Origin: Olivibacter jilunii | Lineage (GTDB): Bacteria; Bacteroidota; Bacteroidia; Sphingobacteriales; Sphingobacteriaceae | Length of the DNA: 64,000 bases | Direction: 5' to 3' | NCBI RefSeq assembly: GCF_900607235.1 | Contig: NZ_LR027850.1 | Coordinates: 574,043-638,042 of the forward strand | Shown: positions 25,125 through 63,371 of the stretch, one piece after another | Layout of the letters: the number at the start of each line of letters is the position of its first letter | Position numbering within the stretch: position 1 is the first letter of the stretch | The notes under the pieces: model-generated | The model's database searches: none | What the model saw: the letters and a program-made list of their open reading frames with translations, nothing else | What the model was told of the DNA's origin: nothing | Made by a program: the position numbers and the translations under genes

Positions 25125-26693
25125 ATGATGCAAAACCTTCCGATTATAGATTTGGTAATCATCGCCTTTTATTTGTTAGCTATGGTATTGGTTGGCGTTT
25201 GGTTTTCGAGAAAGAACAAAAATGCTGAACAGTTCACAAAAGCGGCCGGGCTAATTCCCGGTTGGGCGATCGGTTTATCTATATATGCAACTTTTTTAAG
25301 TAGTAATACCTTTTTGGGCGTGCCTGGAAAAGCCTTCGGTAGTAATTGGAACTCCTTTGTGTTTAGTCTGTCAATGCCATTGGCTGCTTGGATTGCTGTT
25401 AAGTACTTTGTTCCGTTCTATCGCAGCTCGGGAGAAGTATCCGCCTATACGCATTTGGAGCATCGTTTTGGGCCTTGGGCAAGAACTTATGCCGTGGTTT
25501 GTTTTCTGCTAACACAACTTGCTCGGATGGGCTCCGTATTTTTTGGCATTGCGCTCAGTTTGCAAGCACTTACGGGCTACTCAATGGAAGCTATTATGTT
25601 AGTTACGGGTATTTGTATTATCATCTATACGGTTATGGGTGGGATAGAAGCTGTTATATGGACAGAAGTGGTACAGGGCGTAATTAAAACACTTGGAGCC
25701 GTATTGATTATTTATTTGATTGTTTCCAATATGCCAGGGGGAATCCCCAAGATTGTGGAGATTGGCCAAACCAATAGCAAGTTTAGTTTAGGTAGCTTCG
25801 CTCCCGATTTTACAAATTCGACATTTTGGGTGGTACTGCTGTATGGTTTTTTTATAAACCTAAATAACTTTGGGATGGACCAAAATTATGTACAGCGTTA
25901 TCATACGGCATCGTCGCCTCGTGAAGCCAGTAAATCCGTTTGGTTGTGTGTTTGGATCTATCTTCCGGCATCTCTGTTGTTTTTTATTATTGGAGCATGC
26001 TTGTTTGCTTATTATGAGATTAATCCAGCGCTAATTGAACCGATAAAATTGCAAGTTGCTGCAGAACGTTTGGGTGCAGCGGCGTCATCCCACGACCTGT
26101 CAGCATTGGCTGCCACTTTAACACCGGCAGATTATGGGGATAAAGTAATGCCCCATTTTATGGTAACTAAAATTCCGACGGGGCTGATAAGCCTCATAGT
26201 TTCGGCTATTTTATCAGCGGCCATGAGCACGATCAGTTCGGGAATGAATGCTTCGGCGACTGTTTTTTCGGTAGATATTTATCAACGGTATATAAGGAAA
26301 GATCAAGATGATAAACAAACCTTACGCTTATTGCACGTGGCTACGGTTGTTTTTGGTCTGCTAGGAATGGGGACTGGAATTATGATGATCGGTGTAAAAA
26401 GCATTTTAGACATCTGGTGGCAACTATCGGGAATATTTGCAGGAGGTATGTTGGGCCTCTTTTTATTGGGAATTCTAAATAAGCATGCCGGAAACAGTGA
26501 CGCGATTTTGGCAACCATTGTAGGCATACTGGTAATTATCTGGACGAGTCTCTCGTATTTAATTCCGGCAGATTATCCTTATCTCAAAAGCACCTTGCAC
26601 GCTAATATGATCATTGTTGTTGGCACATTGACGATCTATTTGGTAGGGACGTTCGCTGCTTATCTTCGTGGAAAGGAGGGAGTCGTTAATTAG
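25125..26693 (+). CDS. sodium:solute symporter (SSS / SLC5 family)
   Basis: A 522-residue inner-membrane symporter with about 13 hydrophobic segments. SSS hallmarks are WFSRKNKNAEQFTKAAG after the first helix, the YTVMGGIEAVIWTEVVQG motif and AILSAAMSTISSGMNASATV, which lines the Na+ site. The family imports sugars, sugar acids, sialic acid and similar solutes with Na+. The gene leads the plus-strand block whose next gene is a DapA/NanA-fold aldolase. Uptake of a sugar-acid product of the downstream hydrolases is therefore a reasonable inference. The substrate cannot be read from sequence. Confidence 0.92.
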   Translation: MMQNLPIIDLVIIAFYLLAMVLVGVWFSRKNKNAEQFTKAAGLIPGWAIGLSIYATFLSSNTFLGVPGKAFGSNWNSFVFSLSMPLAAWIAVKYFVPFYRSSGEVSAYTHLEHRFGPWARTYAVVCFLLTQLARMGSVFFGIALSLQALTGYSMEAIMLVTGICIIIYTVMGGIEAVIWTEVVQGVIKTLGAVLIIYLIVSNMPGGIPKIVEIGQTNSKFSLGSFAPDFTNSTFWVVLLYGFFINLNNFGMDQNYVQRYHTASSPREASKSVWLCVWIYLPASLLFFIIGACLFAYYEINPALIEPIKLQVAAERLGAAASSHDLSALAATLTPADYGDKVMPHFMVTKIPTGLISLIVSAILSAAMSTISSGMNASATVFSVDIYQRYIRKDQDDKQTLRLLHVATVVFGLLGMGTGIMMIGVKSILDIWWQLSGIFAGGMLGLFLLGILNKHAGNSDAILATIVGILVIIWTSLSYLIPADYPYLKSTLHANMIIVVGTLTIYLVGTFAAYLRGKEGVVN

Positions 26694-26730
26694 CCAATTA
26701 GTTAATTAGCCAATTAGTTAATTAGCCAAT
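26686..26730. repeat. 16-bp tandem repeat overlapping a stop codon
   Basis: TTAATTAGCCAATTAG is repeated 2.8 times head to tail from 26686 to 26730. The first unit contains the TAG stop of the symporter gene. Unit number could vary by slippage without changing the protein. Confidence 0.85.
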
Positions 26731-27083
26731 TTGATAATGAGAGGCTAGTGCGACCGAAAGCTGATAGCTGATCTCAGAAGGCTTGATAATTAGCCAATGG
26801 TTAAAAAGTTGAGTAGGAAAGTAGTTAAGTAGTGATGAATTATAAATGATGAACGATGAATAGCTTATAGCCTACGGCTTAAGGCTTATTGCCTATAGGT
26901 TACAGCTTATTGCCTCATACGCTAATATCCTATAATTTACAGCAAACATATTATAAGAAACATCTTTAAAGCGGGAATAACTTTGCTATTGTTCTAACCA
27001 TTTATTTGCATCTTGTTATGAATGCTGAAGAACTCATATTAAGGTCGCAAATCGGATAGCCAAAAAAGAACTAATCTATAGAA
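26731..27083. other. spacer with degenerate short repeats
   Basis: No gene is supported. The interval holds imperfect repeats (GATGAATTATAAATGATGAACGATGAA, GCTTATAGCCTACGGCTTAAGGCTTATTGCC split by indels) and then a unique AT-rich 100 bp before the aldolase start, where a promoter could lie. Confidence 0.5.
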
Positions 27084-28025
27084 ATGAAACAGAAAGAAAA
27101 GGGATTTATCCCCGTTATGCTTACGCCTTATCTCGAGAATGGGGAGATAGATTTTGACGGGCTTCGCCAGCTAACGGAATTTTATATATCGGCTGGCGCG
27201 TCGGGTCTTTTCGCGAACTGCCAGTCGAGTGAAATGTTTGAACTTTCCGCAGAAGAAAGCTTACGGGTTATTCGGGCGGTGGTAGAACAGGTAGATGAAC
27301 GCATTCCGGTCGTGGCAGCCAGTTCTGTTAAAGGGAATATTGCTGTCCAAGCAGATTTTGTTCGCCAGGTATATTCGTTAGGCGTAGATGCCGTCATTCT
27401 GATAACAGGTTTAATTGCTGCTGAAGACGAAAGCGACGCTGTGTTCGAGGAACGTATATTTGAACTGTTTGAATTAACCGAGAACATTCCATTAGGCTTT
27501 TACGAATGCCCTGAACCCTATAAACGTGTCCTTCATCCTGATCAATTGGGGCGCTTCGTTGCTTCCGGAAGGATTATCTATCACAAAGATACTTGTTTGG
27601 ATATTAAACAAATTCAATCTAAACTGGCTCAGGTTAAAAATCCTGACTTCGGCTTATATGACGCTTACATGGTACATGCTGTTGAATCGCTAAAAGCAGG
27701 TGCTGCCGGTTTGTCCTGTATACAGGGTAATTATTTCCCCGAGCTGATTGTTTGGCTATGTCAGCATTGCAATGATCCTGGTTTTTCAGAACAAATGGCG
27801 TCGGTGCAGCAGTTTCTAACCGACAATATGGATGTTATGCATCATGTATATCCTATTGTTGCAAAATATTTTTTACAAAAAAGGGGATTGAATATATCCT
27901 TGTATAGTCGGAGAAAAGCTGGAAACTTCGATGCGCAAGTTAAATTGGCAATCGATAAACTATACAAAGATTATACGATATTAGCTAAGCAGCTCGATAT
28001 CCCTACCGATATTGCTTTGAGCTGA
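27084..28025 (+). CDS. dihydrodipicolinate synthase / N-acetylneuraminate lyase family aldolase
   Basis: A 313-residue class I aldolase of the DapA/NanA TIM-barrel family. The Schiff-base lysine is K168 (IIYHKDT) and the catalytic tyrosine Y140 (LGFYECPEPYKR). The usual G-S/T-T-GE loop is altered to ANCQSSEMFELS (residues 44-55), so it is neither a canonical DapA nor a canonical NanA. The true reaction is probably cleavage or synthesis of a 2-keto-3-deoxy sugar acid. It has no signal peptide and acts in the cytoplasm. Its place between a symporter and pectin-type hydrolases suggests catabolism of an imported sugar acid. Confidence 0.85.
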   Translation: MKQKEKGFIPVMLTPYLENGEIDFDGLRQLTEFYISAGASGLFANCQSSEMFELSAEESLRVIRAVVEQVDERIPVVAASSVKGNIAVQADFVRQVYSLGVDAVILITGLIAAEDESDAVFEERIFELFELTENIPLGFYECPEPYKRVLHPDQLGRFVASGRIIYHKDTCLDIKQIQSKLAQVKNPDFGLYDAYMVHAVESLKAGAAGLSCIQGNYFPELIVWLCQHCNDPGFSEQMASVQQFLTDNMDVMHHVYPIVAKYFLQKRGLNISLYSRRKAGNFDAQVKLAIDKLYKDYTILAKQLDIPTDIALS

Positions 28026-28050
28026 ACATAGCGTGATCAAAACGAAAATA

Positions 28051-29619
28051 ATGCGAATGATGATACTGAAACGAAGAGATAGATATACACTGTTATTGCT
28101 TTTATTCTGCGTCGGTTTGGGCTTTTCGTCTTTTGGACAAGCCAAACCTTTCGTGTTGACAACGGAAGCTTTAAAACGAGACGTGGCATATTTTAATAGC
28201 ATTGATAGTGAAGCAGTCGTCAACTTCGTGTCCAATAGCCAATCGTTTGAATGGTTGGCGAAAAATATTCCCCTATTTGAATGTCCTGACTCAGCCATTC
28301 AACAAATATATAATTATCGGTGGTGGAGTTTTAGAAAGCACTTAAAGGAAACACCCCATGGCTTCATTTTTACGGAATTTATTGAACCGGTTAAACACGA
28401 GGGAAAATATGGTGCGATCAGTTGTGCATTGGGGCATCATATCTATGAGGGAAGGTGGCTAAGAAATCAAGAATATATCAGACAATATATCGATTTCTGG
28501 TTGATCAAAGAACCAACATTTAAACCTTCAAAATTTCATTCCTTTAGTAGCTGGTTGAGTGATGCTGTGTATAATTTATACCTGGTGCAACAAAATAAAG
28601 AGCAATTGGTGAAATGGCTACCGTTATTGGATAAAGACTATGAACGTTGGGAACGTGAGCGTCAATTGCCCAGCGGACTATTCTGGCAGTATGATGTAAA
28701 AGACGGGATGGAAGAATCCGTAAGTGGGGGAAGAAGAGTACAAAATAGGCGACCAAGCATCAATAGCTATATGTTTGGCAATGCGCAAGCCTTATCGAAA
28801 ATGGGTAAACTGTTCCAAATAGATAGTTTAGTTGATAAATATAATCGCAAAGCAAGTATACTTGAAAAGTTGGTGGTTGACAGCCTTTGGGGCTCCGAAG
28901 GTGATTTTTTCCGTACACGTTATCCGGATGGTCAACTTGCCGCACGCGAGGCCATTGGATTTATTCCCTGGTACTTTAACTTGCCCCCCGATCAAGTCGA
29001 GTTTGCGAAAGCTTGGCTACAACTTACCGATACTGCAGGTTTCCAGGCGCCTTGGGGTTTAACCACCGCCGAGCGAAGAGAGCCTACTTTTCGTACACGT
29101 GGTACCGGACATAGTTGCGAGTGGGACGGCGCCATCTGGCCTTTTGCCACTACCCAGACGCTGAAAGGACTGGCAAATTTGCTCACGAATTATAGAAATC
29201 GAGATGGCATAGATCGTAAGCTATTCTATGAAAAGCTGCATCAATATGCGCGCTCGCATCAAAAAAATGGGAAACCATATATTGGCGAGTATCAGGATGA
29301 GAAAACCGGATACTGGTTAAAAGGAGATAATCCGCGGAGCACTTTTTATAACCACTCCGGATTTTGTGATTTAGTGATTAATGATCTTATAGGCTTAAAG
29401 CCGGGAAGTACGAATCGCCTAAGCATTAAACCACTTGTACCGGATACATGGGATTGGTTCTGTTTGGATAACCTCGTCTATCATGGTCGAACATTAACCG
29501 TTTTATGGGATAAAACCGGCAAAAAATATGGCAAAGGCAAAGGACTTATCTTGTTCGTAGATGGCAAACGTGTTGCCTCCGGCAAAAGCCTGGGCGAACT
29601 GACCGCTAAAATCAATTAA
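28051..29619 (+). CDS. secreted (alpha/alpha)6-type glycoside hydrolase, MGH1-like
   Basis: The protein has a signal peptide (YTLLLLLFCVGLGFSSFGQ) and a helical-toroid body rich in W/R/E motifs: IYNYRWWSFRKH, NSYMFGNAQAL, GTGHSCEWDGAIWPFATTQTL and FYNHSGFCDLVINDLIGL. These resemble trehalase/GH63-like (alpha/alpha)6 enzymes, the group annotated as MGH1-like or GH family unassigned. Candidate catalytic acids are in CEWDGAIW and KDGMEES. A small beta-sandwich tail follows. ATG at 28051 is preferred to the GTG at 28033. It is 3 bp from the GH28 gene. Substrate unknown, probably an oligosaccharide of the pectin set. Confidence 0.7.
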   Translation: MRMMILKRRDRYTLLLLLFCVGLGFSSFGQAKPFVLTTEALKRDVAYFNSIDSEAVVNFVSNSQSFEWLAKNIPLFECPDSAIQQIYNYRWWSFRKHLKETPHGFIFTEFIEPVKHEGKYGAISCALGHHIYEGRWLRNQEYIRQYIDFWLIKEPTFKPSKFHSFSSWLSDAVYNLYLVQQNKEQLVKWLPLLDKDYERWERERQLPSGLFWQYDVKDGMEESVSGGRRVQNRRPSINSYMFGNAQALSKMGKLFQIDSLVDKYNRKASILEKLVVDSLWGSEGDFFRTRYPDGQLAAREAIGFIPWYFNLPPDQVEFAKAWLQLTDTAGFQAPWGLTTAERREPTFRTRGTGHSCEWDGAIWPFATTQTLKGLANLLTNYRNRDGIDRKLFYEKLHQYARSHQKNGKPYIGEYQDEKTGYWLKGDNPRSTFYNHSGFCDLVINDLIGLKPGSTNRLSIKPLVPDTWDWFCLDNLVYHGRTLTVLWDKTGKKYGKGKGLILFVDGKRVASGKSLGELTAKIN

Positions 29620-29622
29620 AAA

Positions 29623-31176
29623 ATGCGCAGCTTATATCTTTTACTTTTTTGTACATTATTTTCTTTCGTTGCACAAGCACAATTGGCGTTGAATGTGTTG
29701 GATTTCGGCGCGAAAAACGATAGCTCGGCATTAGCCACTACGGCGATTAAAGAAGCGATTGCAAAAGCCTCACAAGCCGGTGGTGGCACCATTTATTTTC
29801 CTCCGGGAACCTATCTTACCGGTCCTATCCACTTAAAAAGCAATATTACCCTTTTCATTGAAGCAGGTGCAGAACTTTGCTTCAGTGATAATTTCGACCA
29901 TTACCTACCCATGGTGCCAAGCCGGTGGGAGGGAACCATGGTTACCAATTTTTCTCCTTTCATTTACGCGTATGAAGCAGAGAATATCCGCATTACCGGA
30001 AGAGGAACGCTTAATGGGAATGGAAAGAAATGGTGGGCTTACTCTGAAGTTCATGTAAAGAACTCGCCCGAATCAAAATGGCAGAAAGAATTTCATAAGT
30101 TGAATAAGAATGTACTGCATCCGGATTTACCAGGGTGGGTGGAACGTGGTTTTTTGAGGCCTCCCTTTATCCAACCCATGTATTGTAAAAACGTGCGCAT
30201 AGATGGTATTACCATCAAAAACTCGCCATTTTGGACGGTCAATCCCGAGTTTTGTGATAACGTAACGATCGATGGAGTTACCATTAATAATCCCCCATCG
30301 CCTAACACCGACGGTATTAACCCGGAGTCGTGCAGCAATGTCCATATATCCAACTGCCACATTAGCGTTGGCGATGATTGCATTACGATTAAGTCAGGAA
30401 AAGACCGTTCAGGAAGAAAAGAAGCTCGTCCCGCTGAAAATTATACCATCACCAACTGTACCATGCTATCAGGTCACGGAGGTGTTGTCATAGGCAGCGA
30501 GATGTCGGGTGACGTAAAAAAGATCGTCATTTCGAATTGTATTTTCGATGGTACGGATCGTGGTATCCGCATAAAAACAGCGCGCGGAAGAGGAGGTGTT
30601 GTTGAGGATATCCAAGTAAGTAATATCGTCATGAAAAACATCAAACAGCAAGCCATTGTGCTGGATATGCAGTATGCCAAAACGGATAGGGAGCCGGTCT
30701 CCGAACGAACCCCTAGGTTTAGCAATATCCACTTGAGTAACATTACTGCGCAAGGTGAGCAGGCGGGCTATTTAAATGGACTGGAAGAGATGCCTATTGA
30801 AAATGTATCGTTCAGCAATATGGTGATGGAAACAAAAACAGGTTTCGATATCCGGGCGTCGAAAGGCATTGTGTTCTCCAATGTATCCGTTAATCCCTCC
30901 TCCGGACCGGCAATTGCTGCTACCAATGTTAGCGGTTTACAGATCAATGGGTTGCGGACCGCTGCCGGTTTTAGCGGGAGCGCAACATTGAAATTCAATA
31001 ATGTAAAACGTGCTTTTATTGCCAATTGTTTGATCATGGAACCCATTAAGACATTTCTCGAAGCGAGCGGTAATGAGACGGAGGCTTTACTCTTGAAGGC
31101 GAATGACCTACGTCTTGTTCAAAACCCTTTATATATAAGCGATGCTCCTGAAAACGCCGTCACCCTAGAAAAATGA
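29623..31176 (+). CDS. GH28 polygalacturonase-type hydrolase
   Basis: A secreted right-handed beta-helix enzyme of family GH28, acting on galacturonic-acid linkages of pectin. A signal peptide (LLLFCTLFSFVAQAQ) precedes the helix. All catalytic motifs are intact: D230 in NTDG, D251-D252 in GDD, H285 in GHG and R316-x-K318 in RIK. The 517 residues suggest an exo-acting bacterial form, given the extra loops (SEVHVKNSPESKW). The exact bond may be GalA-GalA or GalA-Rha; sequence alone does not decide. Its stop overlaps the start of the GH95 gene (ATGA), showing translational coupling. Confidence 0.92.
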   Translation: MRSLYLLLFCTLFSFVAQAQLALNVLDFGAKNDSSALATTAIKEAIAKASQAGGGTIYFPPGTYLTGPIHLKSNITLFIEAGAELCFSDNFDHYLPMVPSRWEGTMVTNFSPFIYAYEAENIRITGRGTLNGNGKKWWAYSEVHVKNSPESKWQKEFHKLNKNVLHPDLPGWVERGFLRPPFIQPMYCKNVRIDGITIKNSPFWTVNPEFCDNVTIDGVTINNPPSPNTDGINPESCSNVHISNCHISVGDDCITIKSGKDRSGRKEARPAENYTITNCTMLSGHGGVVIGSEMSGDVKKIVISNCIFDGTDRGIRIKTARGRGGVVEDIQVSNIVMKNIKQQAIVLDMQYAKTDREPVSERTPRFSNIHLSNITAQGEQAGYLNGLEEMPIENVSFSNMVMETKTGFDIRASKGIVFSNVSVNPSSGPAIAATNVSGLQINGLRTAAGFSGSATLKFNNVKRAFIANCLIMEPIKTFLEASGNETEALLLKANDLRLVQNPLYISDAPENAVTLEK

Positions 31177-34004
31177 GCTGGATAAAACTATATCGATTCT
31201 TTTGCGTCTTTTGCTTTATTGTGTTCATAAGGGGAAATCTGTATGGACAGGATTTAACACTATGGTATCAGCATCCCGCTAATACCTGGACGGAAGCACT
31301 TCCCGTTGGCAACGGAAAATTGGGTGCCATGGTATTTGGGGGGGTACAAGCGGATCGTATTCAATTTAATGAATCCTCGTTATGGACGGGTGGTCCCAGA
31401 AACTATAATCAACCCGGCGCAAAGAATTATCTCGGTGAGATTAGAAAGCTATTATCTGAAGGAAAGCAGCAAGCTGCGGAAGAGCTGGCTGGGCGTCATT
31501 TCATGGGAACTAAGTCTATTTCCGATCCACCCGAACCTTGGCTAACGGCCGTAAGAGCAATTGAGCAACAGCCTAAAAATCCTTCACAAGAACATTTTGA
31601 AGATAAGACATGGAGAGAAATGCGTGTCCCGTCGCGAGACGGCTGGGAAAAGGAAGGTTTTCAGGGACTTGATGGCGCCGTTTGGCTCCGGACTACTTTT
31701 AACGTTCCGAAAGAATGGATCGGGCGGGAATTAGTTGTCGACTTGGGGAAAATACGGGATCAGGATTTTACCTATATTAACGGTAAATTGATCGGCACTA
31801 CTCATGATGCAAATCAAGGAAGGCTATATACCATTCCCAAAGATTTAGTAAAAGCACAAAATCAAATTGCCATCCAGGTGATCAATTACGATGACAAAGG
31901 TGGTTTGGTAGGCTATAAAGATCCCAGTCGGAAATTAAGCGTATTTCTAAAGGAAAATACGGCAGATGAATCAGTTTATTTAACGGATACGTGGAAATAC
32001 TGGATACAAAACGATGAAGCACCTCGGGTAGGAAAATACCAGGAGTCATATCAGCCATTCGGTGATTTGCTGCTGGATTTTGGGTCTCAGGCACCGTTTA
32101 GCAATTACAAACGCACACTTGACGTAGAACAAGCGATTTGCAAAACAAGTTACGTACAGAATGGTGTGTCTTTCGAACGAACCTATTTCTCCAGTGCACC
32201 CGATGCGTGTTTAGCAATTCACTTAACAGCTGATCGACCTCGGCAAATTAGTTTTGATGCATCCTTAGCGTCTCCCCATAAGACTTATAACGTGGAAAAA
32301 GTTGACGATTCCACCATTCGGATTTCGGTTCAGGTTAAACAAGGAGTTCTAAGAGGCGTAGGATTCTTGCATGTAAGGCATGAAGGAGGAGAACTCCATG
32401 TCGGAGACGGAAAAATTAAAATATTGGGTGCTAATCAAGCAACCTTATTCCTAACGGCGGCCACAAATTATAAAAGCTATAACGACGTGTCGGGTGATGC
32501 TGAGGAGATTGCCAAATCGCAACTAAACAAGGTTAAAAATAAGTCGTACGATGTGATACGACTGGCACATATACAAGACTATCAACAATATTTTACCAAA
32601 TTTTCATTAAAGTTTGAAGCGGACGAAGCTTCAAACTCGCTCCCTACTGATCAACGGATTGCACAGTTTGTAAAATCGCGTGACCCGAATTTATTGGCCT
32701 TATTTGTCCAATATGGAAGGTACTTGTTGATATCCAGTTCGAGATCCGGTGGATTGGCGCCTAATTTGCAAGGCATATGGAACGATTTACTGACACCACC
32801 TTGGGGAAGTAAATACACCACCAATATCAATGCGGAAATGAATTATTGGTTAGCGGAGAATACCAATCTTTCTGAGCTGCAAGAGCCCCTTTTTCAAATG
32901 ATTAAGGAGCTTAGCGTTGTAGGGCAGGAGACGGCAAAAACGTATTATGATGCACCGGGTTGGGTGCTACATCATAATACAGACCTATGGCGAGGAACCG
33001 CTCCAATTAATAATCCTAATCACGGAATATGGGTAACTGGCGGAGCATGGCTCTGTCAACATTTATGGGAGCATTTTCTTTATACCCAAGATGAAAGTTT
33101 TCTACGTGAGCAAGCTTATCCCATTATGAAAGCTTCGGCTTTGTTTTTTGATCATTTTTTGGTTAGCGATCCAAAAACCGGATGGCTGATTAGTACGCCA
33201 TCAAATTCTCCGGAACAAGGAGGCTTGGTGGCGGGGCCAACCATGGATCATCAGCTAATCAGGCAATTGTTTAGAAATGTCGCTTCCGCTGCTGTGATTC
33301 TTGATATAGATAAGGAATTTGTACAAAGGTTATCGGAAAAAAGCCAAAAAATCGCTCCCAATCAAATAGGAAAACATGGACAGTTGCAAGAGTGGTTGGA
33401 AGACATAGATGATCCTGATAATAAGCACCGGCATGTTTCGCATCTTTGGGCGGTGTATCCGGGTAGCGAAATTAACTGGCAAGACAGTCCTAAATTAATG
33501 AATGCCGCTAAAAAATCATTGATTTTTAGAGGTGATGGCGGGACAGGGTGGAGTTTGGCATGGAAGATCAACCTTTGGGCCCGTTTTAAAGATGCGGAGC
33601 ACGCTTATAAAATGGTCAGCCGATTGCTGAGTCCGGAGGAAGCAGGAGGGGGTGTTTATCCTAATCTTTTCGACGCACATCCTCCCTTTCAAATCGATGG
33701 CAATTTTGGAGGTGCAGCCGGTGTGGCGGAAATGCTTTTGCAGAGCCACCTCGGCAGCATTGATATTCTTCCAGCATTACCAAAAGCGCTGTACGCAGGT
33801 GCTGTTAAAGGAATTCGTGCAAGGGGCGGTTTCGAATTGAGCTATCAATGGCAAAATGGACTATTGACCCATTTGGAAGTGTTCTCGCACGCAGGCGGGA
33901 AGTGCTCCCTTCGATATCGAGACAAAGAAATCCAATTTCAAACTGAAAAAGGACAAACATATTATTTGGATAGCAGTCTAAAACTCAATAGAAACTCCAA
34001 ATGA
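31173..34004 (+). CDS. GH95 alpha-L-fucosidase / alpha-L-galactosidase with inserted beta-sandwich
   Basis: A secreted 943-residue GH95 enzyme. It has the family N-terminus (LTLWYQHPANTWTEALPVGNGKLGAMVFGG), GLAPNLQGIWNDLLTPPWGSKYTTNIN, the Asn-Ile-Asn followed by AEMNYW, and the C-terminal HPPFQIDGNFGGAAGVAEML. In the N-terminal domain about residues 150-260 hold an insertion resembling a carbohydrate-binding or GH2-type jelly roll (AVWLRTTFNVPKEWIG, YINGKLIGTTHD, IAIQVINYDD). GH95 enzymes cleave alpha-1,2-fucose or alpha-L-galactose; in rhamnogalacturonan-II loci the latter is known. Translationally coupled to GH28. Confidence 0.9.
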   Translation: MSWIKLYRFFCVFCFIVFIRGNLYGQDLTLWYQHPANTWTEALPVGNGKLGAMVFGGVQADRIQFNESSLWTGGPRNYNQPGAKNYLGEIRKLLSEGKQQAAEELAGRHFMGTKSISDPPEPWLTAVRAIEQQPKNPSQEHFEDKTWREMRVPSRDGWEKEGFQGLDGAVWLRTTFNVPKEWIGRELVVDLGKIRDQDFTYINGKLIGTTHDANQGRLYTIPKDLVKAQNQIAIQVINYDDKGGLVGYKDPSRKLSVFLKENTADESVYLTDTWKYWIQNDEAPRVGKYQESYQPFGDLLLDFGSQAPFSNYKRTLDVEQAICKTSYVQNGVSFERTYFSSAPDACLAIHLTADRPRQISFDASLASPHKTYNVEKVDDSTIRISVQVKQGVLRGVGFLHVRHEGGELHVGDGKIKILGANQATLFLTAATNYKSYNDVSGDAEEIAKSQLNKVKNKSYDVIRLAHIQDYQQYFTKFSLKFEADEASNSLPTDQRIAQFVKSRDPNLLALFVQYGRYLLISSSRSGGLAPNLQGIWNDLLTPPWGSKYTTNINAEMNYWLAENTNLSELQEPLFQMIKELSVVGQETAKTYYDAPGWVLHHNTDLWRGTAPINNPNHGIWVTGGAWLCQHLWEHFLYTQDESFLREQAYPIMKASALFFDHFLVSDPKTGWLISTPSNSPEQGGLVAGPTMDHQLIRQLFRNVASAAVILDIDKEFVQRLSEKSQKIAPNQIGKHGQLQEWLEDIDDPDNKHRHVSHLWAVYPGSEINWQDSPKLMNAAKKSLIFRGDGGTGWSLAWKINLWARFKDAEHAYKMVSRLLSPEEAGGGVYPNLFDAHPPFQIDGNFGGAAGVAEMLLQSHLGSIDILPALPKALYAGAVKGIRARGGFELSYQWQNGLLTHLEVFSHAGGKCSLRYRDKEIQFQTEKGQTYYLDSSLKLNRNSK

Positions 34005-52488: not shown

Positions 52489-52586
52489 CTGTAGGCGAGA
52501 AGCTTGAATGCCTTAAAAACTGACAAATGATGAAAAAAAGGTACACGTCATTGGTAATAATGATTGCTTATAAAAGAATCTATAAA

Positions 52587-54446
52587 ATGATATTCAAACT
52601 AAAAACAACAATATTAGTATTTAGCCTCTCCTATCTACTTCAAGTAGGAAAGGCAGCCGCTCAGGACACAGTAAAATACATCGGCACCACCTTATCCAAT
52701 GTAGATTACCATCACGGTCAGTTAAGTCCGGCCGTTGGCGTACACAATATTCAGGTATTTAGAGCTAATAGAGAGCACCCTGAATTGGCAGGAGGACATA
52801 ACTGGACCTACAATCATCAACCCATGCTTGCTTATTGGAACAATCAATTCTTTTTGGAGTTTTTGAGCGATCCCATTGGTGAGCATATTCCACCAAGTGA
52901 AAGTTTATTACAGACATCGAAGGATGGTTATCAATGGTCAGATCCCGTGGTAGTCTTCCCGCCTTATAAAATACCCGATGGTTGGAAGAAGAAAGGAAAT
53001 GATAAGGTTGCCAAAGACCTCTACGCCATCATGCATCAGCGCATGGGTTTTTATGTGTCAAAGAGCGATCGCTTATTCGTGTTAGGCTATTACGGCGTGG
53101 CCATGGATGCAAAGGATGATCCGAATGACGGAAATGGCATCGGGCGGGTGATTCGTGAGATATACCGAGACGGTCGTTTCGGTCCAATTCATTTTATCCG
53201 TAATAATGCTTCCTGGGATAAAAAGTTATCAGCCTTTCCGTTTTTTACCGAAAGTAAGGACAAAGGATTTGTGAAAGCCTGTGAAGAGCTGTTGGCACAG
53301 CCCCTGATGATGCAGCAATGGGTAGAGGAAGCAGATCGGGACGACCCCTTAATTCCATTGAAACGCGCTATTAAAGCATTCAATTACTACCACCTTCCGA
53401 ATGGGCAGGTGGTGGGCTTATGGAAGCATGCATTGACTTCGATTAGCACCGATGGAGGTAAAACCTGGGCGTATGATCCGCTGCGCGCACCGGGATTTGT
53501 GAACAGCAATGCCAAAATATGGGGCCAGCGCACAGAAGATGGGCGCTATGCTACGGTGTACAACCCTTCTGAATTTAGGTGGCCACTCGCGGTTTCCACT
53601 AGTGATGATGGTCTTCACTATAAGGACTTATTATTAGTAAATGGTGAGATTTCATCTATGCGCTATGGCGGAAACTATAAATCTTATGGTCCGCAGTATG
53701 TGCGTGGAATTGTGGAAGGTAATGGTAATCCCCCGGGGCAGGCCATGTGGGTGTCTTACAGTATGAATAAGGAAGATATGTGGGTAGCCCGTGTCCCTGT
53801 TCCGATTACTTCCGAAGTCACGCAACCGATCAAAGAAGTCTTTAGTCGGATGACGGATGGTAAAGAATTAAACGATTGGAACCTTTACAGTCCGCTTTGG
53901 GCACCTGTTCAGATCGAGAAGACCACTAATGGAAACAAGGTTTTGGCTTTACGGGATAAAGACCCCTACGATTATGCAAAGGCAGAACGAGTAGTACCTG
54001 AAAGCAAAAAGTTGTCGGTAAAATTTACCTTGGTTCCACAGCAGGTTGACCATGGACTCCTCCATATAGAATGCTTGGATGCAAAAGGACAGGCCGCTGT
54101 ACGTTTGATATTGGACAAGGATAGCCTCTTAAAAATCAAAGCAGGTTATCGAGATTCCAAGTTAAGTACTTATCAGGCAGGTGACGCTTTACAAATTGAA
54201 TTAAAACTCGATGTAAGCAGTCGCTCGTATACGGTTGCTGTCAATGGTGAGCAGAAAGGAACAAAAATATTTTTCGCGCCGGTAGCTAGTATTAGTCGTG
54301 TGGCCTTTCGAACAGGCGAAGTGAGGCGTTTTCCCGATGCAGATACACCAACAGACCAAGACTTTGACCTGAAAAATCCGGGAGATCCGGTGAAAGAGGC
54401 GGTTTATTATATTCAAGACTTCAGTGCTGAACCCTTAAGTAAATGA
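52587..54446 (+). CDS. sialidase-fold beta-propeller protein with C-terminal lectin-like domain
   Basis: ATG at 52587 precedes the signal peptide TTILVFSLSYLLQVGKAAAQ; in-frame ATGs at 52527 and 52560 would add a basic extension. The mature protein (about 595 residues) has Asp-box-like repeats (SLLQTSKDGYQWSD, SISTDGGKTWAYD, AVSTSDDGLHYKD) typical of sialidase/BNR propellers. A concanavalin-A-type beta-sandwich follows from about residue 425 (LSVKFTLVPQQVDHGLLHIECLD). Databases usually call such proteins exo-alpha-sialidase, but the arginine triad is not evident. Propeller families acting on rhamnose-glucuronate or ulosonic acids are alternatives. Confidence 0.65.
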   Translation: MIFKLKTTILVFSLSYLLQVGKAAAQDTVKYIGTTLSNVDYHHGQLSPAVGVHNIQVFRANREHPELAGGHNWTYNHQPMLAYWNNQFFLEFLSDPIGEHIPPSESLLQTSKDGYQWSDPVVVFPPYKIPDGWKKKGNDKVAKDLYAIMHQRMGFYVSKSDRLFVLGYYGVAMDAKDDPNDGNGIGRVIREIYRDGRFGPIHFIRNNASWDKKLSAFPFFTESKDKGFVKACEELLAQPLMMQQWVEEADRDDPLIPLKRAIKAFNYYHLPNGQVVGLWKHALTSISTDGGKTWAYDPLRAPGFVNSNAKIWGQRTEDGRYATVYNPSEFRWPLAVSTSDDGLHYKDLLLVNGEISSMRYGGNYKSYGPQYVRGIVEGNGNPPGQAMWVSYSMNKEDMWVARVPVPITSEVTQPIKEVFSRMTDGKELNDWNLYSPLWAPVQIEKTTNGNKVLALRDKDPYDYAKAERVVPESKKLSVKFTLVPQQVDHGLLHIECLDAKGQAAVRLILDKDSLLKIKAGYRDSKLSTYQAGDALQIELKLDVSSRSYTVAVNGEQKGTKIFFAPVASISRVAFRTGEVRRFPDADTPTDQDFDLKNPGDPVKEAVYYIQDFSAEPLSK

Positions 54447-57235: not shown

Positions 57236-60001
57236 ATGCAAAGTAAGCGTTTATTGGTTTTTCTTTTCTGTACTTTATGGTTTTTTCCGGCAGTTTTTGC
57301 CGAGATGACCGATGTGCGGTTAAGCGATCTACGCTGTGAATCGCTAACTAATCCATTGGGGATTGATCAAGAGGTTCCGCGACTGAGTTGGCAGCTAATC
57401 GGCAGTAAACGGGGTCTGATGCAAACAGCTTATCAGATACAGGTGGCGTCTTCTTTGGATTTATTGAAACAAGGATACGCCGATCGATGGGATTCAGGTA
57501 AGGTATTAAGTGATAGTAGTATACAAGTACCCTATAACGGAGAAAAACTGAATAGTCGCGATCAATGTTATTGGCGGGTGAAAATTTGGACAGATGATGG
57601 AGAGACTCGGTGGAGTGAACCTGCTTATTGGACTGTCGGTCTTTTGCGATACAATGATTGGAAAGGTAGATGGATTGGTCTCGATCGATCCTTTGATTGG
57701 GACCGTGAAGATCAATTCTCCAGGTTATCGGCGCGCTATTTCCGCAAGGAATTTCAAACGGATAAAAAGGTCAAACGGGCAATGGTTTATATCATAGGAT
57801 TAGGCCTGTATGAACTTTATATAAATGGTGAAAAGATAGGAAAACAAGTACTAGCCCCAGCTCCTACTGACTATACGAAGGAAGTAAAATACAATACTTT
57901 TGATGTAACTCAATACCTTAATCAGCGCGGTAAGCATGCGCTTGGCGTTATATTAGGCAATGGTCGTTTTTACACCATGCGGCAAGCCTATAAACCATAT
58001 AAAATAAAAACGTTCGGCTATCCAAAGATGCGTTTGAATCTTGATATATGGTATGAGGACGGCACGAAGGAAACAATCAGCACGGACGACACCTGGAAAG
58101 TGACTGCGGACGGCCCCATACGAACCAACAATGAATACGATGGTGAAGAATATGATGCACGGAAAGAGTTGCCTGGTTGGCATCAGGTAGGGTATGACGA
58201 TCAAACTTGGCTCAAAGCGTCTTTTGTACAGGAACCAGGCGGTATGCCTCGTGCACAACTCAATGAACCTATGCAAGTAATGGATACCTTGCGACCGAAA
58301 ACGATTCGTCTACTTAATAAAAATACTTATATCGTCGATATGGGGCAGAACATGACCGGTTGGCTGAAAATCCGGGTAAAGGGCGCTTCCGGAACGGCTG
58401 TAAAAATGCGTTTCGCCGAATCCCTTCAAGCAGATGGGAGCTTGTTTGTTGCTAATTTAAGAGACGCGAAAGTAACGGATGTATACACCTTACGTGGCGA
58501 AGGAACGGAATATTGGGAACCACGCTTTGTTTATCATGGCTTTCGATACGTAGAAATAAGCGGCTATCCGGGGGAACCTACCTTAGACGATTTGCAAGGC
58601 TTAGTTGTTTATGATGCCTTGGCAACTACCGGCAGCTTTACAAGCGACCGGCCAATCTTGAATGCGATTTACCAAAATGCATGGTGGGGGATTGCGGGAA
58701 ATTACAAAGGCATGCCGGTTGACTGTCCTCAACGGAATGAACGACAGCCCTGGCTTGGTGATCGTACAACAGGTTGTTATGGAGAGAGTTTTTTGTTTGA
58801 TAACGCGAAGTTATATGCCAAATGGCTGGACGATATTCAGGGTGCTCAACTGCCGGACGGAAGCATCCCGGATGTAGCACCTGCTTTTTGGCGCTATTAC
58901 AGTGATAATGTAACTTGGCCGGGAACCTATTTGACCGTTGCCAATATGCTGTACCAACAATATGGGGATGTATATGCTATCAGGAAGCATTATCCATCCA
59001 TGAAACGATGGATACAGTATATGTGGGAAAATTATGAAGAAAATGGATTGATCACAAAGGATAAGTATGGTGATTGGTGCGTGCCACCGGAATCTAAAGA
59101 ACTGATCCATTCCAAAGATCCATTACGTCAAACGGAGGGCATGTTATTGGCCTCGGCAAGCTATTATCAGCTGTTGCGACTGATGCAAGGCTTTGCGGAT
59201 ATTGTAAACAATGAGGTCGATAAGCAATTCTTTGAGGCCAAAGCAGCGGATATAAAGGAAGCTTTTAACCAAAAGTATTTGAACAAGAGTTTAGGACAGT
59301 ATAGTAATAATACGGTGACGGCAAATTTACTTCCTCTTTATTTCGATATGGTTCCAAATGAATACCGAAAGCAGGTTTTTGAAAATATCGTTACCAAAAT
59401 TACGAAGGAGAACAAGGGACATATCAGCACGGGTGTCATTGGTACGCAGTACTTAATGAGAGGACTTAGCAATCAGGGGCGTGCTGACCTAGCCTTTCAG
59501 TTGGCAACAAACACCAGCTACCCCAGCTGGGGATATATGGTGGAAAAAGGTGCAACGACGATTTGGGAACTATGGAATGGTGATACCGCAAATCCTTCCA
59601 TGAATTCCCAAAACCACGTGATGCTATTGGGTGATTTACTGATCTGGTATTATGAACATTTAATTGGCATAAAAGCAAATAAACCAGGTTTCAAGCAAAT
59701 TGTTATGAAGCCCGATTTCAGTCTCCCGCTCATGCAGGTAGAAGGAGCCCATCGTTCAGCATATGGACAGATCCGGAGCAGCTGGAAAAAAGGAAAAGAT
59801 AAACTGCAATGGACTATTGAAGTACCGGGCAATACAACCGCGCTGGTTTATTTTCCAACATCAGATCAAGAAAAAATCCGTGAACATGGAGAAGGAATAG
59901 AAGGTCTGGAAGGCCTTCGATTTGTGAAAAAAGAAAATGGCCATAGTGTATTTGAGGTGGGAGCCGGAACGTATCAGTTCAGTGTTGACTTAGTTGAGTG
60001 A
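57236..60001 (+). CDS. GH78 alpha-L-rhamnosidase
   Basis: ATG at 57236 follows the GH2 stop by one base; the ATG at 57212 overlaps that gene. A signal peptide (LLVFLFCTLWFFPAVFA) is followed by the GH78 N-terminal beta-domains (TDVRLSDLRCESLTNPLGID, LSWQL, YFRKEFQT). The (alpha/alpha)6 catalytic barrel holds general acid E502 in CPQRNERQPWLGD and base E778 in TIWELWNGD. A C-terminal beta-sandwich (AYGQIRSSWKKG) ends it. The enzyme cleaves terminal alpha-L-rhamnose from pectin or related glycans; the 921-residue length is typical. Confidence 0.94.
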   Translation: MQSKRLLVFLFCTLWFFPAVFAEMTDVRLSDLRCESLTNPLGIDQEVPRLSWQLIGSKRGLMQTAYQIQVASSLDLLKQGYADRWDSGKVLSDSSIQVPYNGEKLNSRDQCYWRVKIWTDDGETRWSEPAYWTVGLLRYNDWKGRWIGLDRSFDWDREDQFSRLSARYFRKEFQTDKKVKRAMVYIIGLGLYELYINGEKIGKQVLAPAPTDYTKEVKYNTFDVTQYLNQRGKHALGVILGNGRFYTMRQAYKPYKIKTFGYPKMRLNLDIWYEDGTKETISTDDTWKVTADGPIRTNNEYDGEEYDARKELPGWHQVGYDDQTWLKASFVQEPGGMPRAQLNEPMQVMDTLRPKTIRLLNKNTYIVDMGQNMTGWLKIRVKGASGTAVKMRFAESLQADGSLFVANLRDAKVTDVYTLRGEGTEYWEPRFVYHGFRYVEISGYPGEPTLDDLQGLVVYDALATTGSFTSDRPILNAIYQNAWWGIAGNYKGMPVDCPQRNERQPWLGDRTTGCYGESFLFDNAKLYAKWLDDIQGAQLPDGSIPDVAPAFWRYYSDNVTWPGTYLTVANMLYQQYGDVYAIRKHYPSMKRWIQYMWENYEENGLITKDKYGDWCVPPESKELIHSKDPLRQTEGMLLASASYYQLLRLMQGFADIVNNEVDKQFFEAKAADIKEAFNQKYLNKSLGQYSNNTVTANLLPLYFDMVPNEYRKQVFENIVTKITKENKGHISTGVIGTQYLMRGLSNQGRADLAFQLATNTSYPSWGYMVEKGATTIWELWNGDTANPSMNSQNHVMLLGDLLIWYYEHLIGIKANKPGFKQIVMKPDFSLPLMQVEGAHRSAYGQIRSSWKKGKDKLQWTIEVPGNTTALVYFPTSDQEKIREHGEGIEGLEGLRFVKKENGHSVFEVGAGTYQFSVDLVE

Positions 60002-60048: not shown

Positions 60049-60146
60049 TGCGAGTTACCCGTTGTGAGTTGTGAGAAAGGTTTGTGTGACTGAAAGCTGA
60101 TTGCTGATAACCGAAATCCGATAGCTAATAAAAATAAATTGTAGAG

Positions 60147-60833
60147 ATGAACCAATTAAAAAACATCAAGATCTTAAGTTTCCTGTTTGCTTTGTTGCTA
60201 TTCGCCTTTGCGAGTTATGGCCAAGATGATGCTGCGCGTTTAGCAAAGTCGGATGCCGAGCAGCTTAAGAAAGCGCAGGAATGGGTTGGAAGTTTGGCAC
60301 TGGACAACAAAACGAAAGAAGAACGTTTAGTACAAGTGGTAGTCAGGCACCTAAAGGCCGTACGGGATTGGCACAATGGTCACCCGTTTACGGAGGTACC
60401 GGCGGGTATCAATCCCGCGACGGGAAATAAGTTAAGTGAACTCGATCGGCAAATCATTGCGGATAGTGCCATGCCGACAGAAGTTCATCAACAGTTAATG
60501 GACGGTTTGCGAAAAGATTTGACTGAAGAGCAGGTAGCGACTATTCTGGATAAATACACGATCGGCAAAGTTGCTTTTACAACGAAAGGTTATGAAGCGA
60601 TTGTTCCCGATTTAACAGCGAAAGAACGGGAGGTGATCAAGCAAAACCTCGAGCAAGCACGGGAGCAGGCGGTGGATTACAAAAGTATGAAGCAGATATC
60701 TGCTGTTTTCGAGATTTACAAAACCAAAATTGAACAGTATTTCAATGCAAATGGCCGGAACTGGCGTCAACTATTTAAAGCCTATGTCGACGCGGCAAAG
60801 GCGAAAAAAGCAAAGGAGAAAAATAATGGTTAA
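60147..60833 (+). CDS. DUF3826-like secreted helical protein (second paralogue)
   Basis: A signal peptide (ILSFLFALLLFAFASYGQ) leads to a ~205-residue helical protein with the conserved blocks ERLVQVVVRHLKAVRDWHNGHP, LTEEQVATILDKYTIGKVAFTTKGYEAIVPDL and LEQAREQAVDYKSMKQISAVFEIYKTKIEQYFNANG. It shares these with the protein at 37946-38617, though the central NPATGNKLSELDRQIIADSAMP segment is only here. Function unknown; the family recurs in polysaccharide-utilisation loci. The next gene overlaps its 3' end by 8 bp with an AAGGAG ribosome-binding site inside this gene. Confidence 0.72.
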   Translation: MNQLKNIKILSFLFALLLFAFASYGQDDAARLAKSDAEQLKKAQEWVGSLALDNKTKEERLVQVVVRHLKAVRDWHNGHPFTEVPAGINPATGNKLSELDRQIIADSAMPTEVHQQLMDGLRKDLTEEQVATILDKYTIGKVAFTTKGYEAIVPDLTAKEREVIKQNLEQAREQAVDYKSMKQISAVFEIYKTKIEQYFNANGRNWRQLFKAYVDAAKAKKAKEKNNG

Positions 60834-61971
60834 AATGATGAAGATTAGTTTATTAACCTTGCTTATGCTCGGTGTATTTATAGGCGCGCATGCCCAAGAA
60901 AAGCAGCCGTGGAAACAAGGCATCCTGAAAGAAGAGTTTTTGTATGAGAAAGCGGCTTTTCCATCGTGCCATTCAGCAACTATGGCAGAAACGCCTAGCG
61001 GTTTGGTAGCAGCTTTTTTTGGTGGGACCAAGGAGCGTCATCCCGATGTGGAGATTTATGTTTGCCGCTTTGAAAACGGCACTTGGACGGCTCCGGTTTC
61101 GGCTGCAGACGGCGTACAGGCAGAAGGTAAGCGCCTACCTACCTGGAACCCCGTGCTCTATCAAATTCCGGGCGGCGATTTACTTTTGTTTTATAAAATC
61201 GGTCCTAAACCCTCAGCGTGGTGGGGGATGCTAAAGCGCTCGAAAGATGGTGGAAAAACCTGGTCGGCTGCCGAAAAGCTACCAAATGGCCATATCGGTC
61301 CGGTGAAAAATAAACCCGTCTTACTCGATAACGGACAACTTTTTTGCCCCAGCAGCACCGAAGGTAACGGCTGGAAAATCCATTTCGAAGTAACGCCGGA
61401 TTTTGTGAAGACTTGGCGTAAAATTGGCCCTTTGGCCGCGAAGGATAGTATTGACGCGATCCAACCAAGCATCCTCGTACATGGTAATCGCACTTTACAG
61501 TTGCTTGCGCGTAGTCGCAATAGGGCTTTAGTGCAATCATGGTCGACCGACAACGGCGAAACCTGGTCGCCACTCGAAAAAACAAGCTTGCCGAATAATA
61601 ACTCAGGAACCGATGCGGTAACGATGGCCGATGGTCGCCATGTATTGGTTTATAACCATGTACTTCCTCCGGGAAATCTGGCAAAAGGCCCCAGGACACC
61701 TTTAAACGTATCGGTATCAAAAGACGGAAAGAGCTGGTCGGCCGCCCTGATACTAGAAGATTCTCCCATTAGCCAGTATTCCTATCCTGCCGTGATCCAA
61801 ACGAAAGATGGTTTGCTGCACTTTATTTATACTTGGAGGCGACAAAAAATAAAACATGTTGTCGTTGATCCAAACGAACTCAAGCTGTTGCCTATTCAAA
61901 ATGGAGAATGGCCGAAAGTAAAGGGGTATACAGCTCCTAAACTAGAAGAATACAAGAAAGAGGAAGATTAA
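60826..61971 (+). CDS. sialidase-like (BNR-repeat) six-bladed propeller protein
   Basis: Start ATG at 60826, preceded by AAAGGAG at the right distance, gives a signal peptide (LLTLLMLGVFIGAHAQ). The longer frame from 60730 is an overlap artefact. The mature ~350 residues have Asp-box motifs (SKDGGKTWS, STDNGETWS, SKDGKSWS) and the BNR_2-like blocks FPSCHSATMAETPSGLVAAFFGG and HPDVEIYVCRF. Database labels are exo-alpha-sialidase. In this pectin setting the substrate could be a non-sialic ulosonic acid or another acidic sugar; the arginines expected for sialic acid binding are not clear by eye. Coupled to the DUF3826 gene by overlap. Confidence 0.78.
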   Translation: MVKMMKISLLTLLMLGVFIGAHAQEKQPWKQGILKEEFLYEKAAFPSCHSATMAETPSGLVAAFFGGTKERHPDVEIYVCRFENGTWTAPVSAADGVQAEGKRLPTWNPVLYQIPGGDLLLFYKIGPKPSAWWGMLKRSKDGGKTWSAAEKLPNGHIGPVKNKPVLLDNGQLFCPSSTEGNGWKIHFEVTPDFVKTWRKIGPLAAKDSIDAIQPSILVHGNRTLQLLARSRNRALVQSWSTDNGETWSPLEKTSLPNNNSGTDAVTMADGRHVLVYNHVLPPGNLAKGPRTPLNVSVSKDGKSWSAALILEDSPISQYSYPAVIQTKDGLLHFIYTWRRQKIKHVVVDPNELKLLPIQNGEWPKVKGYTAPKLEEYKKEED

Positions 61972-61973
61972 CA

Positions 61974-63371
61974 ATGACAGGTCGAATTTCGTTTATACTA
62001 CTCATATCGCTGATAATAAGTCAGCTATGTTTTATGCGATCAACTCGCGCGCAGGACAGCGATCGTCAATACCGGATGCCACTTAAAGACGTACTGCAAC
62101 AAATTGAGGCTCGCTTCGGTGTCAAGATCAAATACAACGAAAATCAGGTAAAAGATCGAAACTTAACCTATGCCTTATGGCGGTTTAGACCAACGGTAGA
62201 TGAGACCCTATCTCAGGTCTTAGCGCCTCTGGACCTAAAAGTGAATAAGGAAAAAGAAGGTGTTTATAAGTTAAAAGAGTACGAATACTACCGTTGGCCT
62301 GTGCAAGAAGGTTGGGAGAAACTGGATACGCTGGCCGCTCGATATCGCAACAAAGCAAGTTGGGAATTAAGGAAAGACAGCCTTAGAAAAGAATTATGGA
62401 GCGCATTAAAATTAAGTCCATTACCCGCTAAGCCTGTCTCGAAACCGATAGTTACACCTGTACGGAAAATGGATGGTTATACGGTTCAGAATATTGCCCT
62501 TGAAATATTACCAGGAGTCTATGTGAACGGATCCTTATATCGGCCAATGAAAGCAAAGGGAAAAATACCCGTCGTTTTAAGTCCGGACGGACACTGGCAA
62601 GGCCATCGATTCCGTAAAGATGCACAAATCCGTTTTGCCATGACAGCTAGAATGGGAGCGATGGCCTTCAGTTACGATTTGTTCGGCTGGGGCGAATCCG
62701 GTTTACAATTTAAATACGAGGATCATCGAAAGAGCTTGTCGCAAACCGTACAGACACTGGGAGCCGTACGTATTCTCGATTATTTGTTAAGCTTGCCCAA
62801 TGCAGATACTTCGCGGGTAGCTATCTGCGGAGGCTCCGGCGGTGGCAGTCAAACCGTGTTGATGGCAGCCCTTGATCCCCGTATTAAATTAAGCATTCCT
62901 GTCGTTTCACTGTCCTCCTACTTCTATGGAGGATGTCCTTGTGAAAGCGGCATGCCAATCCATTTGTGTGGTGGCGGAACGAATAATGTGGAGCTTGCAG
63001 CTATGGCCGCACCTAATCCACAGCTTGTTATATCCGATGGTGGGGATTGGACGGCCCATATGCCTGAGCATGATTTGCCTTATTTGCAAAAACTATACAG
63101 TTATTACGGGAAGCGAGAACTGATGGAGAATATCCATCTACCGCAAGATGGACATGATTTCGGTTTTTCCAAGCGGAAACCGGTATATGATTTTATGATC
63201 AAACATTTCGGTTTGAACGAAAAAGCCGTGAAAGATAAACAGGGAAATTACGACGAAAGTAAATGTACGATCGAAGATGAAAAGGCACTTTATGTGTTTG
63301 GGAAGAATGGGGAAAAACTTCCTGGAAATGCCTTGAAAGGTTATGAAAATTTAGAGAAGTTGTTTCAATGA
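61974..63371 (+). CDS. STN-like domain fused to an acetylxylan-esterase-like alpha/beta hydrolase
   Basis: A secreted 465-residue protein starting 2 bp after the previous stop. After the signal peptide (ILLISLIISQLCFMRSTRAQ), residues ~35-100 (MPLKDVLQQIEARFGVKIKYN, VDETLSQVLAPLDLKV) resemble an STN / DUF4974-type domain, normally found in TonB receptors and FecR anti-sigma factors. An alpha/beta hydrolase follows with nucleophile S288 in ICGGSGGGSQT, H394 in PQDGHDFGF and probable acid D355 or D358. It is related to the acetylxylan esterase / methylesterase group that includes pectin methylesterase-like CE19 proteins. It is likely to de-esterify pectin. Confidence 0.8.
   Translation: MTGRISFILLISLIISQLCFMRSTRAQDSDRQYRMPLKDVLQQIEARFGVKIKYNENQVKDRNLTYALWRFRPTVDETLSQVLAPLDLKVNKEKEGVYKLKEYEYYRWPVQEGWEKLDTLAARYRNKASWELRKDSLRKELWSALKLSPLPAKPVSKPIVTPVRKMDGYTVQNIALEILPGVYVNGSLYRPMKAKGKIPVVLSPDGHWQGHRFRKDAQIRFAMTARMGAMAFSYDLFGWGESGLQFKYEDHRKSLSQTVQTLGAVRILDYLLSLPNADTSRVAICGGSGGGSQTVLMAALDPRIKLSIPVVSLSSYFYGGCPCESGMPIHLCGGGTNNVELAAMAAPNPQLVISDGGDWTAHMPEHDLPYLQKLYSYYGKRELMENIHLPQDGHDFGFSKRKPVYDFMIKHFGLNEKAVKDKQGNYDESKCTIEDEKALYVFGKNGEKLPGNALKGYENLEKLFQ

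Follow-up and report, generated by a model that had tools for sequence, protein, structure and literature searches.

The block at positions 25125-63371 of the window, by which we mean the whole 64,000-nucleotide stretch analysed here (positions 574043-638042 of contig C3, in a 6.7-Mb genome), is very probably part of a polysaccharide utilisation locus (PUL) for rhamnogalacturonan-II (RG-II) in an Olivibacter-like bacterium. We put this at about 0.9, a figure that covers the RG-II locus and not the proposed use of 3-deoxy-D-manno-octulosonic acid (Kdo), which is weighed separately. RG-II is the most complex pectin of plants, and most of what is known of its breakdown comes from one gut species. 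PMC12282258 agrees on this last point, and also has RG-II PULs from broader environmental niches already in print. What is described below of the families, their order and co-occurrence, and the two split enzymes comes directly from the present analysis.

Evidence for an RG-II locus

The block contains twenty genes, all on the plus strand, with several intergenic gaps of only a few bases (Table 1). A SusC/SusD pair stands together with GH140, GH143, GH142 and a BT_1017-type esterase. GH106 and GH141, which the first-pass annotation of this DNA had not recognised, are indeed outside the window, but elsewhere in the same genome. That annotation had listed SusC, SusD, GH28, GH95, two GH2, GH140, GH43-like, GH78, PL1, two sialidase-fold proteins and an esterase on one strand and read them as an RG-II-type set. 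All of these were found, the families it named agree with the Pfam, NCBIfam and PDB searches, and its reading gains strength since GH143, GH142 and the BT_1017-type esterase are also present. It had failed to recognise GH142 and GH143, both near full-length matches to modules of BT_1020, and had taken the protein at 52527-54446, which is of GH143 type, for a plain sialidase fold. The symporter, the aldolase, GH142, DUF6298 and the two DUF3826 genes are types that it had not named. A partial RG-II system was rejected, and no alternative system is needed either, because GH142 and GH143 are in the window and the locus, cut by the window, continues beyond it.

Neighbours of GH143 were counted in 80 of its loci, all of them in named genomes, as matches of at least 100 bits within 10 kb where the contig allows; both flanks are nearly whole in 67 of these loci. 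The most common neighbour is the GH43-like protein (76 loci), followed by DUF6298 (70), GH140 (67), PL1 (62), GH78 (59), BNR_2 (50), GH2 (46), the esterase (35) and GH142 (24), where the PL1, GH78 and GH2 matches may be paralogues. Among 14 named control genomes, GH143 and DUF6298 were seen only in Bacteroides ihuae. A locus that targets homogalacturonan or rhamnogalacturonan-I generally and borrows RG-II-type enzymes is very unlikely: PL1, GH28, GH78, GH2 and GH43-like enzymes are generally understood to serve other pectins too, but GH143, GH142, GH140 and the BT_1017-type esterase all occur in one block, and DUF6298, GH140 and the GH43-like protein accompany GH143 at the frequencies just given.

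As for function, the enzyme activities are inferred from characterised homologues. The SusC/SusD pair would bind and import RG-II pieces. The exported PL1, GH28 and BT_1017-type methylesterase would open the galacturonan backbone, while GH140, GH78, GH95, GH2, GH142, GH143 and others would trim the side chains.

The closest system is RG-II PUL 1 of Bacteroides thetaiotaomicron. The two have in common GH143, GH142, GH140, GH95, GH28, GH78, GH2, PL1, a BT_1017-type esterase, DUF3826 and SusCD. The activities of BT1001, BT1012, BT1017, BT1018 and BT1021 in this PUL are treated in PMC7939467. In contrast to the B. thetaiotaomicron locus, GH143/GH142 and esterase/DUF3826 are unfused here, a symporter and an aldolase head the locus, and DUF6298 and BNR_2 often accompany GH143 in the loci surveyed. 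Many other Bacteroidota share the RG-II core, mostly with unfused enzymes.

Two bimodular enzymes as separate genes

Separate matches to the modules of BT_1020 and BT_1017 mean that two bimodular enzymes of B. thetaiotaomicron are separate genes here. BT_1020 (PDB 5mqr) is one polypeptide in that species, whereas its two modules, residues 23-605 and 632-1101, are matched in the window by two genes 23 kb apart. We take its N-terminal half to be GH143 and its C-terminal half to be GH142. The Pfam name of the domain at 52527-54446 is itself BT_1020-like, and the window GH143 protein shares 91% identity with its counterpart in Olivibacter sp. XZL3 and 85% with the one in O. domesticus.

Among the 80 GH143 loci, GH143 and GH142 share a single reading frame in only 4 (L068, L069, L078, L080). 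GH142 is separate but within 10 kb in 20, eight of them with gaps of at most 158 bases or a 4-base overlap and twelve with 6.7-8.8 kb between the genes. The remaining 56 have no GH142 within 10 kb, in a set of 80 where a contig end clearly cuts short a flank in 13. In several genomes (e.g. G002, G129, G187) GH142 lies farther away on the contig of GH143, and it is present in 11 of 14 genomes searched whole, so the count of 56 means not nearby, rather than absent. Some variation was seen in GH143 itself. Genome G287 has a second, divergent GH143-like protein (L173:8633-10522, 40% identical to that of the window) as well as a fused form of 1109 amino acids, and in Sinomicrobium (L043, L047) the GH143 frame has 905 amino acids, about 290 above the usual length, and is not fused to GH142.

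In the case of BT_1017 (PDB 6goc), both the catalytic part and the DUF3826 module are found in the window, as two genes on either side of the BNR_2 gene. The family label of this esterase type is CE19. A fusion of BT_1017-type esterase and DUF3826 occurs in L068 and L069, and probably in L171, judging by its length of 656 amino acids. According to PMC7939467, BT_1017 is an RG-II pectin methylesterase with its activity in the part before DUF3826 and a G-X-S-X-G-G nucleophile motif. The window esterase carries GGSGGG, which fits this motif, and its Ser288 is invariant in 21 sequences. Several Asp and His residues are also invariant in this family alignment and may include the catalytic ones.

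Continuation of the locus beyond the window

The locus extends past the end of the window, with contigs C3 and C5 linked by the gene order of O. domesticus. Another 5.7 kb of C3 follow the window, with genes for a TIM-barrel protein, a GH28 and a GH78, before the contig ends. Homologues of these last two (71% identity each) are present on one O. domesticus contig, followed there by homologues (48-86%) of the genes that open C5 of the same genome as the window. These are a GH130-like gene, GH2, a regulator, GH141, SusC, SusD and two more; next come genes for a Gfo/Idh-like protein, a symporter and a GH78-like protein. GH141 is thus inside the part of C5 that is syntenic with the O. domesticus continuation. 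GH106, GH127 and a DUF5703 protein (L093:6042-8441) are located around 33-44 kb from the start of C5, beyond the stretch where synteny could be compared. GH106 is found in this genome on C5, C11 (two proteins) and C19, the latter a contig of 5351 bases (L091) on which GH106 is complete and a GH78 only begins.

C5 also has a set of five genes (L092:9997-15752), two solute-binding-protein-like, two CaiB-type CoA-transferase-like and one Gfo/Idh-like, the CaiB and Gfo/Idh labels being assigned by eye. It is 52-69% identical to a set adjoining a symporter-aldolase-isomerase cluster in Flavobacterium daejeonense (L163), and perhaps serves the catabolism of another RG-II sugar.

DUF6298

In a phylum sample of 296 genomes, 17 have GH143; DUF6298 is present in 15 of these and in none of the other 279. 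The association is strong (Fisher p 2e-23; 4e-22 leaving out the window's own genome), in a test that ignores kinship, six of the 17 GH143 genomes belonging to one genus. The occurrence in Bacteroides ihuae was mentioned above. DUF6298, whose function is uncharacterised, seems specific to RG-II breakdown and, in the boldest reading, would be a family of enzymes that only RG-II degraders have; no paper on it was found in the open literature searched. Together with the candidate genes for the fate of Kdo, it offers a directly testable target.

Of the sequences available for the AlphaFold alignments, 44 of 62 and 27 of 34 were taken. The DUF6298 model (44 sequences) has a mean predicted local distance difference test (pLDDT) score of 83.6, with parts of the barrel at low confidence. 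It contains, in order, a right-handed beta helix (around residues 36-480), a TIM-barrel-like part and a C-terminal beta-sandwich. The beta helix resembles alginate epimerase/lyase (VIA Z 28.6) and polygalacturonase (27.2). For the barrel, Foldseek gives matches at modest scores to GH140 and GH5 structures; GH140 BT_1012 has a template-modelling (TM) score of 0.24 by query and 0.49 by target, and is ranked below phage depolymerases and other beta helices. The 50 matches listed by VIA-align are to beta helices and say nothing of the barrel. Profile comparison of DUF6298 with GH140 gave only 63 C-terminal columns at a probability of 23, and so does not establish homology of the barrels. Glu739 and Glu814 are invariant in the 44 sequences and could be the catalytic pair.

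The symporter and the aldolase

The first two genes of the block, a sodium:solute symporter and an aldolase, might open a catabolic route dedicated to Kdo. This reading is tentative, and its odds were lowered slightly, to about one in three, after a recheck of the counter-evidence. The symporter would import the released ulosonic acid, that is Kdo from RG-II side chain C and perhaps 3-deoxy-D-lyxo-heptulosaric acid (Dha), and the aldolase would cleave Kdo into pyruvate and D-arabinose. A fucose isomerase would then turn D-arabinose into D-ribulose, and a ribulokinase would produce D-ribulose 5-phosphate, so that an aldolase, a fucose-type isomerase and a ribulokinase in series would fit Kdo degradation. 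If true, these genes would be assigned to Kdo use in bacteria of plant matter, with BNR_2 as a possible Kdo hydrolase.

The literature on the single steps is as follows. In plants, neither Kdo nor Dha is yet known outside RG-II (PMC12168206). NanA and human NPL cleave Kdo (PMC13220900), a Lactobacillus lyase forms Kdo from D-arabinose and pyruvate (PMC4016182), and L-fucose isomerases act on D-arabinose (PMC6894278). Phrases for Kdo catabolism matched no paper in the open literature searched.

For the aldolase search, 50 of the 80 GH143 loci were selected, chiefly from isolates with long contigs, and 27 of the 49 genomes so examined carry it (E at most 1e-20). Of 30 aldolase loci, 27 have a symporter homologue no more than 1.5 kb away. 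Seventeen of the 27 carrier genomes have the aldolase around 45 kb or less from GH143, 16 of them with both on the same strand. In the phylum sample (E at most 1e-30) it occurs in 9 of 296 genomes, 7 of which have GH143 (Fisher p 1.8e-8; 2.4e-7 leaving out the own genome). Tyr140 and Lys168 are invariant in 27 aligned sequences, and were equated by eye with the Tyr and the Schiff-base Lys of DHDPS/N-acetylneuraminate lyase. NanA belongs to the same Pfam family, with Tyr and Lys again placed by eye, but the window aldolase reaches only 40-52 bits with NanA models and chains, and has the loop NCQSSE where NanA types have GGSTGE.

A fucose-isomerase-like gene was surveyed in 58 genomes, 50 of them the GH143 set with the own genome and 8 added for carrying the aldolase. 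Fifteen have the gene, all with the aldolase and 12 of them among the 50. In 14 of the 15 its distance to the aldolase is at most 4 kb, and these 14 belong to a total of 36 genomes with the aldolase. The aldolases with such a neighbour are 51-63% identical to that of the window. In the aldolase tree, the window protein is one of 19 rows that form a supported set, and 8 of these rows are isomerase-linked. Two Sphingobacterium genomes (L166, L177) have a kinase between isomerase and symporter; the one in L177 matches the NCBIfam ribulokinase model (651.9 bits, cut-off 428), and the one in L166 was recognised by eye. In the isomerase-like family, PF02952 is matched by 14 of 14 members and PF07881 by 8 of 14 (Pfam E at most 0.001), with bit scores around the cut-off of 29.3 (30.3 for member P0005, 27.1 and 24.6 for two others). 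A tie between this gene and the aldolase was rejected, as only 3 of its 11 carriers in the phylum sample have the aldolase. In three loci without aldolase (L213, L214, L215) it is near sugar ABC transporter-like genes, as seen by eye, with an FGGY-type kinase also in L214. No set of sugar ABC transporter and kinase was noticed around the gene in L216-L220.

Several points weigh against the Kdo step. Kdo is also part of bacterial lipopolysaccharide (PMC13220900), therefore a Kdo pathway need not serve RG-II. The best PDB match of the aldolase has only 61.9 bits. The aldolase is missing at E 1e-20 in 22 of the 49 GH143 genomes, including the nearest relative that has a GH143 locus, Olivibacter sp. 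XZL3 (G001), and in 10 of the 17 of the phylum sample, and it occurs in 2 of the 279 genomes without GH143. In 10 of the 27 genomes that have it, no copy shares a contig with GH143 at a distance of 45 kb or less. As for the isomerase, comparison of the isomerase-like family with FucI by hhalign gave a probability of 1.7, with very shallow profiles, P0005 has no PDB sequence match at E 0.01 and no NCBIfam match, and 8 of the 11 carriers in the phylum sample are without the aldolase. The isomerase-like gene was not found in the own genome or in O. domesticus. Each has FucI (1063.6 bits in the own genome, cut-off 850), and the own genome would have to use this canonical enzyme for the isomerase step.

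It is a real possibility, if well short of even, that the substrate of the pair is a different 2-keto-3-deoxy acid, such as one from galacturonate, and that the pair accompanies RG-II loci only because these are pectin loci. A distant relative (40%) in genome G211 is beside altronate-type dehydratase-like and semialdehyde dehydrogenase-like genes, as recognised by eye, and both the two aldolase-positive genomes without GH143 and the many GH143 genomes without the aldolase point the same way. The closeness of the isomerase-linked aldolases to that of the window argues against it, as does the proximity to GH143, mostly on the same strand, in 17 of the 27 genomes.

Import of Dha from side chain D, with cleavage by the aldolase to pyruvate and a four-carbon acid aldehyde, is rather unlikely. 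The aldolase gene is 25 bases upstream of GH142, whose counterpart in BT_1020 removes arabinose from Dha, and GH142 adjoins the symporter-aldolase pair again in O. domesticus (L098) and Spirosoma telluris (L165). Nevertheless, a gene of the fucose isomerase family close by in 14 genomes, and a kinase in two, suggest that the product is a neutral aldose, whereas cleavage of Dha would not yield one.

BNR_2 is the candidate for the release of Kdo in the Kdo reading. Its AlphaFold model has a mean pLDDT of 88.3 and aligns with sialidase NanI at VIA Z 35.7, with a root-mean-square deviation of 2.3 over 310 residues; in Foldseek the first match is 5hx0, a protein of unknown function, followed by sialidases. 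Kdo is a ketoside like sialic acid, so a Kdo hydrolase is a natural guess, and BNR_2 is possibly such an enzyme. Tyr318, Arg229 and Arg290 are invariant by eye. The N-terminal Arg and the Glu partner were not recognised in this inspection, made without residue alignment to a sialidase, and BNR_2 was kept out of GH33 because the arginine triad is incomplete by eye. A sialidase-like neighbour of the symporter-aldolase cluster in L177 was rejected as support for a Kdo hydrolase, having 31 bits to BNR_2.

Gene inventory

Gene types were called by Pfam, NCBIfam and PDB searches. For the types listed by the first-pass annotation, the Pfam match is above the family cut-off except for PL1 and the GH43-like protein. 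PL1 has no Pfam match, and its NCBIfam match to PelZ (135.9 bits) is under the cut-off of 840. PF16586 was discarded as a model for GH140, since it is DUF5060 and gave no match. The true starts of several genes are downstream of the listed start of the open reading frame.

Table 1. Genes of the block, with positions in the window
Gene product	Positions	Strand	Evidence
Sodium:solute symporter (SSF)	25125-26693	+	Pfam SSF 145.6 bits
DHDPS/N-acetylneuraminate lyase family aldolase, probably cytosolic	27084-28025	+	Pfam DHDPS 93.3 bits; no signal seen
GH142-type protein, separate gene	28033-29619, likely start 28051	+	PDB 5mqr (BT_1020) 632-1101, E 3e-160
GH28	29623-31176	+	Pfam 168.5 bits
GH95	31173-34004	+	Pfam GH95 catalytic 592.4 bits
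GH2 with malectin domain	34127-37663	+	Pfam
DUF3826 protein a	37886-38617, likely start 37946	+	Pfam DUF3826 206.6 bits
SusC-like TonB-dependent transporter	38668-42084	+	Pfam
SusD-like lipoprotein	42105-44063	+	Pfam SusD_RagB 139.1 bits
Small exported-looking protein downstream of SusD	44105-44500	+	No Pfam match
PL1-type pectate lyase	44898-46559	+	PDB 9buj pectate lyase E 1e-42
DUF6298 protein	46588-49725	+	Pfam 814 bits
GH140 apiosidase	49739-51142	+	Pfam Apiosidase 389 bits
GH43-like lipoprotein (BT_3657-like)	51205-52122	+	Only BT_3657-like N-terminal domain passes Pfam cut-off
GH143-type protein, separate gene	52527-54446, likely start 52587	+	PDB 5mqr 23-605, E 4e-237; Pfam Beta-prop_BT_1020 411 bits
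GH2	54448-57234	+	Pfam
GH78 alpha-L-rhamnosidase	57236-60001	+	Pfam
DUF3826 protein b	60147-60833	+	PDB 6goc (BT_1017) residues 454-656, E 7e-77
BNR_2 sialidase-fold protein	60826-61971	+	Pfam 303 bits
RG-II pectin methylesterase homologue	61974-63371	+	PDB 6goc (BT_1017) residues 23-455, E 9e-129

Export was judged from the N-termini with a crude hydrophobicity script. By this measure 18 of the 20 products appear exported, in line with the first-pass annotation, which had nearly all of them exported; the exceptions are the symporter, a membrane protein, and the aldolase, which has no signal. Credible lipoboxes were found by the script in SusD, GH140 and the GH43-like protein, and the one that it flagged in SusC was discounted.

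Ten of the larger open reading frames before 25 kb were scanned and are amino-acid biosynthesis and other housekeeping genes. Lastly, a 30-base repeat has exactly three copies in the window, at 20901-20930 (minus strand), 24516-24545 (plus) and 63387-63416 (plus), two of which flank the RG-II block. None was found in 100 shuffles, with up to 3 mismatches allowed. The same repeat occurs once each in the examined parts of contigs C5 and C11 of the own genome and of O. domesticus.

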